This document shows positions 33,751 through 37,336 of a stretch of DNA of 46,493 nt, piece after piece. The translations under genes were made by a program, and so were the position numbers. Position 1 is the stretch's first letter, and each line of letters opens with the position of its first letter. The notes under the pieces are model-generated. The model was given only the letters and a program-made list of their open reading frames with translations. It was not told the DNA's origin and did not search any database. Source of the DNA: Methylomonas subterranea (GTDB lineage: Bacteria; Pseudomonadota; Gammaproteobacteria; Methylococcales; Methylomonadaceae); contig NZ_JANIBJ010000033.1 of NCBI RefSeq assembly GCF_024505185.1, positions 1-46,493 of the forward strand. Direction: 5' to 3'.

Positions 33751-34560
33751 TCAGTACGTATGTTCGGGTGCCGGAAACAAGCGGGTCTTTACGGCGTGGT
33801 GATAACGTCTGACCGCCTCTTCTATGCTATCGGCCTCGGCCATGAAGTTTTTGGAAAAACGCGGGCGATTGCCGGCGGTAATATTCAACATGTCGTAAAG
33901 CACCAGCACCTGACCGTCGCAGGCCGGGCCGGCGCCGATGCCTATCACGGGGATCGTCAGATTTCGGCTGATTTCCTCGGCCAGCATGGCTGGCACGCAT
34001 TCCAGTACCAGCAGGCCGGCGCCGGCCTGTTCGACGACAAGTGCGTCCTCCAGTATTTGCTGGGCCTGGCCGGCTTCGCGGCCTTGCACCTTATAACCAC
34101 CGATACGGTTGACCGATTGGGGCAGCAGGCCTAAATGGCCGCAGACCGGAATGCCCTGTGCGACCAGGAATTCGATGACATCGATTTTGGCGCCTTCGAG
34201 TTTGACCATTTGCGCGTTGCCGGTTTGCATCAACAAGGCGGCATTGGTTAAGGCTTGTTGCGGGGAGGCATAACTGGCGAAAGGCATGTCGGCTATCACA
34301 AAGGCCCGCCTTCTGGCGCTTGTCACGCAGCGGGTGTGATAAGCCATGTCTTGGATCGTGACCGGCAGGGTGCTGCCATGGCCTTGAATGACCATGCCCA
34401 ACGAGTCGCCGACCAATAGCAATTCGATGCCTACGTGATCCAAAAGAGCGGCAAAGCTGGCGTCGTAGGCGGTCAGGCAGCTGATTTTTTCCCCGGCCTG
34501 TTTCATGGTCAGCAGGTCGCGGATGGAAAGCGTCTTGCCGGTGTCGGCATAGAGTGTCAT
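33751..34560 (-). CDS. panB: Ketopantoate hydroxymethyltransferase
   Basis: A 269-residue enzyme of pantothenate synthesis that transfers a hydroxymethyl group from methylene-THF to ketoisovalerate. Motifs: ISCLTAYDASFAALLD, LLVGDSLGMVIQGH, MPFASY, VKLEGA, VCGHLGLLPQSVN, and VIGIGAGPACDGQVLV. It starts in the folK stop (TAATG). Confidence 0.97.
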   Translation of the reverse strand: MTLYADTGKTLSIRDLLTMKQAGEKISCLTAYDASFAALLDHVGIELLLVGDSLGMVIQGHGSTLPVTIQDMAYHTRCVTSARRRAFVIADMPFASYASPQQALTNAALLMQTGNAQMVKLEGAKIDVIEFLVAQGIPVCGHLGLLPQSVNRIGGYKVQGREAGQAQQILEDALVVEQAGAGLLVLECVPAMLAEEISRNLTIPVIGIGAGPACDGQVLVLYDMLNITAGNRPRFSKNFMAEADSIEEAVRRYHHAVKTRLFPAPEHTY

Positions 34561-35060
34561 TAAGCAATTCTCCGCAAGCCGTCGGCCGGACAGTCAGCCA
34601 GCAGGTCGGCCAAACTGCCCTTGCCGGCAACGCACAAATCGGCGGGGGCAATATCGGCCAGCGGATATAACACAAAGCCCCGCTTCGCCATTTCCGGGTG
34701 CGGCACGATCAAGTCGGCTTGGTCTAGGATAAGGTTGTCATAGAGCAAAATGTCGAGGTCCAGGGTCCTGGCGCCCCAGCGCGTTGAGCGCACGCGGCCG
34801 TGCCGGTTTTCTATGGCTTGCAATTGTCTTAGCAGGGCTGGCGGCGACAGTGTGGTTTGAATTCGCATCACCGCATTGACGTAATCGGGTTGATCCCGTG
34901 GGCCCACCGGCTGGCTGCTGTAGAGCGGAGATAGCGTGGGGTGGTAAATTTCGGATATTTCGCCAATTTCCAGCGCGGCGGCGCGGACTTGTTGCAAGGG
35001 GTCGTCAAGATTGCTGCCGAGGCCGATGTAGGCTATGTGCCGGTCGGACGGCTGGCTCAT
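34560..35060 (-). CDS. folK: HPPK, folate biosynthesis
   Basis: A 166-residue 6-hydroxymethyl-7,8-dihydropterin pyrophosphokinase. Motifs: YIGLGSNLDDPLQQV, YSSQPVGPRDQPDYVNAV, and RWGARTLDLDILLYDN with the Mg-binding DLD pair, then VPHPEMAKRGFVLYPL. It overlaps the pcnB stop by ATGA. It links folate, whose derivative panB consumes, to pantothenate synthesis in one operon. Confidence 0.97.
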   Translation of the reverse strand: MSQPSDRHIAYIGLGSNLDDPLQQVRAAALEIGEISEIYHPTLSPLYSSQPVGPRDQPDYVNAVMRIQTTLSPPALLRQLQAIENRHGRVRSTRWGARTLDLDILLYDNLILDQADLIVPHPEMAKRGFVLYPLADIAPADLCVAGKGSLADLLADCPADGLRRIA

Positions 35061-36430
35061 TGTGGAGTACCCGATTTTTTGCGGCCGCGATAGCGGCGCG
35101 GTTTTCCCCTGGTTTTAGGGTTTCCGCCCCTGGGTGGCGCCGTCATGACGCGCTGGGTCTCTTCGTCCGCCAGTTGGAACCGCGCCCACCAGTCCACCAA
35201 TTCGGGGTCGGCACCGCCGGTTTCCGCTCTTAGTTGCAGGAAATCGTAAGCGGCTCGAAATTTGGGTTGTTCGAGTAAGCGATAGGGCCGTGCGCCAAAG
35301 GTTTTGGAAAACTTGCCTTGCAGAAACCAGACGTCCCGCATCGATTGCGTGATGTGGCGCGGCATGGCGGTGATTTTGATTTGCCGGCTCAGAACTTCGT
35401 TGGCGGCATTCTGGTAGGCAAGGGTCTCGTGTTCGCCTTGTTCGATACGTTTGTTCGCGGCCAATTGCAGGGGTTCCCACAACAGGGCGGCCAGTAAAAA
35501 ATAGGGTGTCAGGCTTTTACCGTCCGCAAAACGCGAATCCGAATTTTCCAGCGCTCTGATCAAGAACAGGCGCGGAAACTCATGGTCTTGGGTCTCCAGA
35601 CATTTGTCGGTGGCGGGAAACAACATGGCGAACAGGCCATAGTGTCTAAGCATTTCAAAGGTTTGTACGCCATAGCCGGATAGGAACAGCTTCAATACTT
35701 CGTCGTAAAGCCGGGCGGCGGGAATGCTTTTCAGTAGCTCCGCCTGGGTGTAAATCGGTTGTTCGGTCTGGGGATGCAGCGTAAAACCCAGTTTGACGGC
35801 AAAGCGTATGGCTCTCAACATTCTGACCGGGTCCTCCCGGTAGCGCATGTTGGGGTCGCCGATCAGGCGCAGGACTGCATTGGCATGATCCTGCATGCCG
35901 CCGGTATAATCGACCACGGAAAAATCGCGGATGTTGTAATACAAGGCATTGACGGTAAAGTCGCGGCGCCACACATCTTCTTCCAGGGTGCCAAATACGT
36001 TGTCGCGCAGCAGGCGGCCGTCCTCATGTATCACGTGTTGGTCGGATTCTTCCGGCTCGGAGCCGCGAAAAGTGGCGACTTCGATGATTTCGCGGCCGAA
36101 GAACACATGCGCCAGCCGGAAACGGCGACCGATGATGCGGCAATTTCTGAACACCTGCTTGACTTGTTCGGGGCTGGCGTTGGTGGCAACATCGAAATCC
36201 TTGGGTTCGCGGCCCAGCAATAAATCCCTGACGCAGCCACCCACCAAATAGGCTTCATAGTCGGCTTTTTTCAGGCGTTGCAACACTTTTAAAGCGTTTT
36301 CGCTGATTTGGGCGCGGGAAATACAATGTTCCGAACGGGTATAGATTCTTGCTTGGCTTTCCAGGCCCGGACCAACTTCGCTAACGTGCGAATCACTCGC
36401 CGAAAAAATTTTTTTGAAGAATTTAAAAAT
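35057..36430 (-). CDS. pcnB: Poly(A) polymerase I, predicted AUU start
   Basis: A 457-residue enzyme that adds 3' poly(A) tails to RNA and marks it for decay. Catalytic motif LVGGCVRDLLLGREPKDFDV (GGxVRD and DFD), RRFRLAHVFFG, RRDFTVNALYYN, REDPVRMLRAIRFAVKLG, and a basic C-terminal tail. The first canonical start in frame is GTG 36286. The conserved PcnB segment RSEHCISRAQISENALKVL is encoded upstream of it (36337-36281), with no ATG, GTG or TTG. ATT at 36430, 8 nt after AGGG, gives MFKFFKKIFS, like the N-terminus of E. coli PcnB, which is known to start at AUU. Confidence 0.88.
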   Translation of the reverse strand: MFKFFKKIFSASDSHVSEVGPGLESQARIYTRSEHCISRAQISENALKVLQRLKKADYEAYLVGGCVRDLLLGREPKDFDVATNASPEQVKQVFRNCRIIGRRFRLAHVFFGREIIEVATFRGSEPEESDQHVIHEDGRLLRDNVFGTLEEDVWRRDFTVNALYYNIRDFSVVDYTGGMQDHANAVLRLIGDPNMRYREDPVRMLRAIRFAVKLGFTLHPQTEQPIYTQAELLKSIPAARLYDEVLKLFLSGYGVQTFEMLRHYGLFAMLFPATDKCLETQDHEFPRLFLIRALENSDSRFADGKSLTPYFLLAALLWEPLQLAANKRIEQGEHETLAYQNAANEVLSRQIKITAMPRHITQSMRDVWFLQGKFSKTFGARPYRLLEQPKFRAAYDFLQLRAETGGADPELVDWWARFQLADEETQRVMTAPPRGGNPKTRGKPRRYRGRKKSGTPQ

Positions 36431-36550
36431 GACAATAACCCTGTGAATAATGTTTAATCCCTGTTTGTTATGCGCATGTGCCGCAAAGTCAGGCTGTTTG
36501 TTGCTTTATGATAACACCGCGCAAGATGACTGCTCAATCCGGCGTTGTCT

Positions 36551-36676: not shown

Positions 36677-36856
36677 ATGTTTAAGAAAATTTTGATCGGC
36701 TTTGTTGACCAGCCTTTGTTTACCAGTTTGTTTGTAGCTGATTTTGCCATACTGTTGTTCCATAGGCCGCCGTTTTTGTTTTCGCTGTTGATGGTGGGCG
36801 CGCTGGTAGCTATGAGCATGTATATGGGGCAAAAACTCGAATTGTTCCGCAAGTAA
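36677..36856 (+). CDS. 59-residue membrane protein, function unknown
   Basis: A short ORF: MFKKILIGFVDQPLF, then two hydrophobic segments (about residues 14-28 and 33-50) separated by HRPP, and a polar end QKLELFRK. AGGAG and GAGGGG precede the ATG and a good promoter lies upstream. A strong terminator follows at 36884-36924. I recognise no family; a two-helix hairpin membrane protein is what can be seen. The next ORF starts directly at its stop (TAA-TTG). Confidence 0.7.
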   Translation: MFKKILIGFVDQPLFTSLFVADFAILLFHRPPFLFSLLMVGALVAMSMYMGQKLELFRK

Positions 36857-37336
36857 TTGCCGGCTTTCGAAACCAAAAAGGCCAAAAAACCCACCGCCGA
36901 AGCCGATTTGGCGGTGGGTTTTTTGCGTCGCATGGGGGCGGTAATTTATGACGCCCTGCTGTTGCTGGCGGTGTGGTTTTTTGCCACCGCTCTCATCCTT
37001 CCCTTCAATTCGGGCCAGGCATTCTCGTCCGAGCAATATTTTTTTCCGATTTACCTGGTTGCGGTCAGCTATGCTTTTTATGGCTGGTTTTGGACTCACG
37101 GCGGACAAACACTGGGACTTCGGGCTTGGAAAATCAAACTGGTCGCTTTGGACGGCGGCGCGGTGGGCTGGAAAGAGGTCAGCTTGCGTTTCGCGGCCGC
37201 CATATTGTCTTGGGGCTGTGTGGGGCTGGGTTTTTTTTGGTGTGTTTTCGATAAAAGCCGGTGCTGTTGGCATGATCGATTGTCGAATACCCGCTTGGTT
37301 TTAGTCCAGACAGAAAAAAGCGGGAGGCAAAATTGA
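36857..37336 (+). CDS. RDD family membrane protein
   Basis: A 159-residue inner-membrane protein with the RDD fold: AVGFLRRMGAVIYDALLLLA (first helix with the conserved R and D), a second helix ending YGWFWTHGGQTLGLRAWKIKL, a third near AAAILSWGCVGLGFFW, and WHDRLSNTRLV at the end. Some RDD proteins are reported ion exchangers; this one's role is unknown. TTG 36857 directly follows the upstream stop; an ATG at 36932 would remove the conserved Arg. Its first codons contain a near-perfect intrinsic terminator. Confidence 0.78.
   Translation: MPAFETKKAKKPTAEADLAVGFLRRMGAVIYDALLLLAVWFFATALILPFNSGQAFSSEQYFFPIYLVAVSYAFYGWFWTHGGQTLGLRAWKIKLVALDGGAVGWKEVSLRFAAAILSWGCVGLGFFWCVFDKSRCCWHDRLSNTRLVLVQTEKSGRQN
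36884..36924 (+). terminator. Intrinsic terminator inside the RDD reading frame
   Basis: A perfect 15-bp inverted repeat: AAAAAACCCACCGCC (36884-36898) and GGCGGTGGGTTTTTT (36910-36924), 11-nt loop, ending in six T. It is 27 nt past the stop of the 59-residue gene. It lies within codons 10-23 of the RDD ORF. Confidence 0.85.

Follow-up and report, generated by a model that had tools for sequence, protein, structure and literature searches.

A conserved AUU codon as the probable translation start of the poly(A) polymerase gene pcnB in Methylomonas subterranea and its family

The DNA analyzed here (contig NZ_JANIBJ010000033.1 of the methane-oxidising bacterium Methylomonas subterranea, 46,493 nt; this whole stretch is referred to below as the window) carries a gene, pcnB, for poly(A) polymerase I, which adds tails to RNA destined for decay; there is no ordinary start codon at the beginning of its conserved coding region. 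The question is where translation of this gene starts. Its product scored 513.2 bits against TIGR01942, above the curated cut-off of 305.65, and matched PF01743, PF12627, and PF12626 of Pfam; the head, RNA-binding, and arginine-rich C-terminal domains, i.e., the complete set, were present. The open frame comprised 482 codons from position 36505, with a TAA stop just upstream, to the stop codon ending at 35057. The first-pass annotation had read back 48 codons without encountering a canonical start, and this was borne out over a longer distance: there was no ATG, GTG, or TTG in the 73 codons after the upstream stop, the first one being GTG 36286. None of the canonical codons of the frame (ATG, GTG, and TTG were checked) was able to give the conserved PcnB protein. 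Relative to GTG 36286, the TIGR01942 model starts 20 codons further upstream, and RSEHCISRAQISENALKVL is located in frame on the 5' side of this GTG, both of which confirm that a conserved PcnB stretch precedes this codon, as had been proposed. Crystal structures of the E. coli enzyme (3aqk, 3aql, and 3aqm) match from residue 28–29 of the AUU product; the crystallised enzyme thus lies partly upstream of the first canonical start. An ordinary ATG is located at the conserved N-terminus of the other member of this protein family in the genome, a putative CCA-adding enzyme as judged from its sequence. The features of the locus are listed in Table 1.

Table 1. Features of the pcnB locus in the window and start codons considered
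Feature	Position	Strand	Remarks
pcnB, poly(A) polymerase I	35057..36430	minus	457 codons from ATT plus stop
ATT, predicted start codon	36428..36430	minus	32/32 genus loci; in the genus, the coding pattern starts at this codon
Putative Shine-Dalgarno AGGG	36439..36442	minus	8 nt before ATT; AGG codon there in 32/32 genus loci
N-terminal segment lost with a GTG 36286 start	36284..36427	minus	helix FKFFKKIF, variable linker, RSEHCISRAQISENALKV
Putative sigma-70 promoter	36508..36537	minus	TTGAGC, 18 nt, TG-T-TATCAT (extended -10)
folK	34560-35060		downstream of pcnB; name from translation and E. coli gene order
panB	33751-34560		after folK; name from translation and E. coli gene order
GTG as start	36284..36286	minus	rejected: GTG in only 10/32 genus loci
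CTG alternative	36362..36364	minus	rejected: CTG in 2/32 genus loci
Two in-frame ATT codons with a second AGGG upstream	36446..36451	minus	rejected: 1/32 and 4/32 genus loci

The pcnB gene of E. coli, according to a 2002 report attributed to Binns and Masters, is initiated at AUU and limited at translation. Passages of PMC9410913, PMC9764084, PMC13009471, and PMC1780047 cite this translation-limiting AUU start, and pcnB is described in the first of these passages as one of two genes with chromosomal AUU starts in the species. ATT was the annotated start in all three RefSeq records of E. coli pcnB that we examined. The start regions of the two genes are similar in that ATT follows AGG (AGG TGTACT ATT in E. 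coli), and folK is located directly downstream of pcnB in both genomes. At the same time, pcnB of the window seems to head its operon, the next upstream gene being divergent, while gluQ is located upstream of the E. coli gene; in E. coli there are also an in-frame TTG upstream and a GTG 11 codons downstream of the start, both absent from the window. The divergent region (36680-37336, plus strand) consists of a 58-codon open reading frame, resembling a small membrane protein and having no match in Pfam or NCBIfam, followed by an RDD-family gene. The N-terminus read from ATT 36430, MFKFFKKIFS, had initially been likened to that of E. coli PcnB. The AUU codon is indeed shared, but the peptides are only loosely similar (FKFFKKIFS and FTRVANFCRKVLS, respectively). 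The window peptide forms a short amphipathic helix with a hydrophobic moment of 0.66, reached by 1.5% of shuffled sequences; the corresponding values for the N-terminal helix of the E. coli enzyme were 0.67 and 7.9%.

We compared the codon at 36430 in 98 loci of the family belonging to 26 genera, a chosen part of all loci found; the genus set comprised 32 of 37 genomes. ATT occupied this column in all 32 genus loci, while ordinary isoleucine columns of the same genes varied (ATT 7, ATA 3, and ATC 22 at column 8; ATC 30, ATT 1, and ATA 1 at column 42). Such invariance is not due to chance. In the other genera, ATT was found in 64 of 66 loci and ATC in the remaining two (L037 and L305), which makes 96 ATT, 2 ATC, and no ATG in the family as a whole. 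The suggestion of the first-pass annotation that this ATT, 8 nt after AGGG, is the probable start thus gained support from the relatives. The Shine-Dalgarno match was only three bases long in 23 of the 66 loci of other genera. Canonical codons within six codons upstream of the ATT were absent from all 32 genus loci, six of which had one somewhere further upstream; in other genera, 16 of 66 loci had one within this distance. Eleven of the 66 carried ATG (L275, L285, L309, and L324) or GTG (seven loci) three codons before the ATT; for the majority of them, an AGGG-like stretch ended at the canonical codon, 9 nt before the ATT. This spacing suggests that the stretch suits the ATT better, though a canonical start is possible there; these loci may represent lineages shifting to a canonical start.

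The boundary between non-coding and coding DNA was analyzed by codon-position divergence in ungapped comparisons within the genus, with the ATT as an anchor. Codons -12 to -7 diverged equally at the three positions (0.705/0.671/0.656), which is a non-coding pattern, while codons +1 to +8 demonstrated a coding pattern (0.052/0.091/0.267). The RSEHCISR (HxISR) block, located upstream of GTG 36286, had values of 0.117/0.014/0.496. In three of the 98 family loci, an in-frame stop was found only two codons before the ATT. By these comparisons, the frame begins at the AUU and the ATT is maintained.

A different arrangement was found in the sister family (loci L063, L074-L103, L345-L347, and L231), where 33 of 35 loci, two of them duplicates, fit one pattern. 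At the homologous isoleucine column, these 33 loci had ATC (22), ATT (8), or ATA (3), with a third-position divergence of 0.504, and the codon two upstream was CTG in 29 of them; without the two duplicates (n = 31), the counts were 21, 7, and 3, with 27 CTG. The sister family, as far as can be judged from these sequences, probably starts pcnB at CUG. The third base of the isoleucine codon is free where CTG is fixed; constraint is therefore lost where the isoleucine codon need not serve as the start. Of the four loci without CTG, one (L096) had ATC in its place, while the other three (L097, L098, and L346) had only the isoleucine codon (ATT, ATC, and ATT, respectively). The two loci outside the pattern, L075 and L078, had CTC at the isoleucine column and kept the CTG. 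In one genus of this family (L074-L079), an in-frame ATG was present further upstream within TTATGAT, a sequence that looks like a -10 box. A third family of the order had, by inspection, mostly TTG at the CTG column of the sister family; in family f3, the N-terminus had diverged. The start column was read in three families of the order (f167 and f168 were left out), and in none of these was it AUG: AUU, CUG, and UUG were found. Duplicate sequences (L063/L074, L087/L231, L020/L248, and L003/L238) all fell within the order. The pcnB match contained one stop codon in each of G192, G242, and G372, where assembly error, a pseudogene, or a match extending beyond the start of the gene is possible.

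Three other readings of the locus were weighed. The first, which we regard as very improbable, places the start at another near-cognate codon of the window: ATT 36448, ATT 36451, or CTG 36364. The window sequence by itself did not point to 36430 in particular, since there is a second AGGG together with the in-frame ATT 36451 and 36448. A naive Shine-Dalgarno model ranked ATT 36448 best in the window, an in-frame ATT was kept at the place of 36451 in four of 32 genus loci (the window included), and the sister family probably uses CTG, though at another column. However, ATT at the place of 36448 occurred in the window only (1/32), an in-frame stop separated the place of 36451 from the conserved ATT in 10 of 32 genus loci by an ungapped count, and CTG was found at the column of 36364 in two of 32. 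It is the comparison with relatives that singles out 36430 over 36448 and 36451. The scorer, combining Shine-Dalgarno match and codon, penalised near-cognates and was too noisy to assign starts; it chose an ATT in 21 of 32 genus loci and 52 of 66 loci of other genera, preferring ATT 36448 in the window, and was used only to name a candidate where no canonical start was present.

Even less credible is a reading in which the ATT is conserved as a DNA or RNA element and several nearby codons initiate. It could account for the codon before the ATT being GTC or GCC in 28 of 32 genus loci, which makes the conservation slightly wider than the ATT itself, and for the ATG or GTG three codons before it in the 11 loci of other genera described above. 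Against it, the genus sequences change from a non-coding to a coding pattern at the ATT codon itself, third-base constraint at the isoleucine column is gone in the sister family, whose start is probably located two codons upstream, and the window leader has no stable structure. A start at GTG 36286 or TTG 36283, with a 409-residue protein and an upstream frame open by chance, would have the earliest canonical start codons in the frame but is hardly tenable, given that the block upstream is strongly constrained as coding, that residues encoded there are included in the TIGR01942 model and in the crystallised E. coli enzyme, and that the column of this GTG in the genus reads GTG 10, GTA 20, GTT 1, and GTC 1 (n = 32). 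In short, in the comparison of N-termini and upstream codons, the ATT column was fixed while those of GTG 36286 and CTG 36364 were not. These comparisons make it highly probable that pcnB is translated from AUU 36430, a near-cognate start that would limit the output of poly(A) polymerase.

A near-cognate start of infC served as a positive control. Among 30 genus loci (L375-L404), the start of infC was ATC in all 29 that were readable, L396 being left out because its frame runs off the locus; this ATC is preceded by GGAGGA, and an in-frame TAG lies one codon before it. Two near-cognate starts are thus maintained in this genus, ATC in infC and ATT in pcnB. According to a passage in PMC1805508, infC starts with AUU in E. 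coli and Bacillus subtilis. The two genes differ in that infC, as described in part of PMC9410913, is autoregulated by its own product, while regulation of pcnB would be possible only in trans; the AGGG of the window pcnB is also weaker than the GGAGGA of infC. Conserved near-cognate starts, AUU in cvfC1 and AUA in ccpN, are mentioned for Staphylococcus aureus in an excerpt of a start-site mapping study (PMC13009471). On the evidence of that excerpt, these cases are similar to ours in that near-cognate starts are kept within a bacterial group, and differ in concerning other genes, having an extended Shine-Dalgarno sequence, and having been mapped experimentally, whereas the start of pcnB was located here by sequence comparison.

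To define absence of a canonical start, a strict rule was used: no ATG, GTG, or TTG between the in-frame stop and an anchor in the protein. The resulting counts are lower bounds, as a chance GTG or TTG upstream or within the N-terminus removes a locus, that of E. coli included. Under this rule, 39 of 269 pcnB loci (four duplicate pairs included) lacked a canonical start vs. none of 203 folK loci. On the named contigs, with residue 34 as the anchor, the values were 6/79 for pcnB, 0/43 for gluQ, and 2/422 for twelve control genes (can in L262 and mrcB in L219). Moving the anchor to residue 25 gave 8/55 for pcnB and one control hit (can), and moving it to residue 45 gave 4/79 and three control hits (can and, twice, mrcB). 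An anchor at the first aligned residue yielded 22/79 for pcnB but also 11/43 for gluQ and was replaced by a fixed residue because it depends on the annotated start of E. coli.

A motif anchor was found in 343 of 372 pcnB loci (195 of 215 outside the order and 148 of 157 inside). Loci of the class sample were chosen by hand, in most cases one for each family, among the best-scoring rows listed and a set of 80 loci; the named set comprised the best 80 out of 590 confirmed. Outside the order, 20 of the 195 loci had no canonical start, and these fell under 18 of 139 family labels (15 codes and 3 names, one of them an order); since family codes were not matched to NCBI family names, the 139 labels may overlap. 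The remaining 175 loci had some canonical codon in frame. Candidate starts in the 20 loci were ATT (13), ATC (5), ATA (1), and CTG (1), the last one, assigned by the scorer in L171, being doubtful. Thirteen of the 20 were short forms, in which the RxxH motif followed the candidate by 7 to 9 codons. As the candidate in short forms is located about eight codons before RxxH and not at the same column, it points to a recurrent property of the gene, and an AUU-type start looks like such a property of pcnB rather than one inherited codon. Either long or short N-termini occur among gammaproteobacteria with near-cognate candidates. By inspection, ATT was found in the same context in Citrobacter, Atlantibacter, Lelliottia, Enterobacter, and Pantoea, after AGG TGT CCC in two Shewanella, and as ATT ATC at the place of the pcnB start in Lonsdalea and one Photobacterium. 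On the other hand, an ATG is available in Halomonas, Marinobacter, Cellvibrio, Gilvimarinus, and others, so the trait is not universal. A FastTree phylogeny required at least 23 label changes; many of its rows were partial, 99 of 200 inner branches had values under 80, and the labels combined strict loci with 14 hand-named ones, so gains and losses were not inferred from it. The first-pass annotation had expected the trait far beyond enterics. As to reach, this expectation held, with 18 of 139 outside labels, while universality failed in view of the genera with ATG. Nor is the codon the same across lineages: AUU is found in the family of the window, probably CUG in its sister, and UUG in another, and AUC and AUA are candidates elsewhere.

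Regarding transcription, the putative promoter TTGAGC-18-TGTTATCAT ends at 36508; the 601 bases scanned contained 8 promoter-like sites, this one included, where 1.3 were expected. In 29 of the 32 genus loci, TGNTATNAT preceded the ATT by 76–94 nt. From the end of the promoter and the position of this sequence, a leader of about 70 nt would be expected. The window leader folded no better than shuffled sequences (z 0.88), and RNA structure therefore gives no support for regulation. A tRNA-Glu (CTC) gene was located close upstream of pcnB, on the other strand, in 9/9 loci of other gammaproteobacteria picked for upstream sequence (L049, L053, L060, L072, L108, L114, L147, L227, and L235), and in several of these a TGGTATTATAC-like -10 box was present between tRNA-Glu and pcnB. 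In L062 and L061, an extended -10 box was located very near the ATG of pcnB (TATTAT ACCGAA ATG in L062), so that a leaderless pcnB mRNA is possible there.

In the proposed mechanism, the AGGG would position the ribosome at AUU 36430, and fMet-tRNA would initiate there; the poly(A) polymerase I so made would have 457 residues and carry an amphipathic helix at its N-terminus. With a near-cognate codon, initiation would be slow and the amount of poly(A) polymerase low, as reported for E. coli. We infer further that IF3 would discriminate against this start, which would link pcnB with infC. It is conceivable, albeit somewhat less than probable, that what selection keeps at pcnB is weak initiation and not a particular codon, with AUU, AUC, AUA, CUG, and UUG being swapped across gammaproteobacteria.

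AUU initiation of pcnB in E. coli is already known. As far as our searches go, based on the matches listed and on partial texts, the fixation of AUU throughout a family, a probable CUG start in its sister, and the scattered way in which such starts recur are new: full-text searches gave no paper on the pcnB start codon outside E. coli among the matches listed, and no mention of AUU was found in the available portion of PMC8208693, devoted to horizontal transfer of pcnB. A practical consequence is that start prediction limited to ATG, GTG, and TTG would misplace the N-terminus of PcnB in such genomes. If weak initiation is indeed what selection keeps, rationing of poly(A) polymerase at the start codon would restrain RNA decay generally and would be very ancient, with IF3 as its probable reader, at pcnB as at infC. 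The weak start fixed in a methanotroph family, the probable CUG of its sister, and the loci lacking a canonical start under 18 further labels turn a curiosity of E. coli into a testable rule: that initiation is the step at which the cell rations its poly(A) polymerase.
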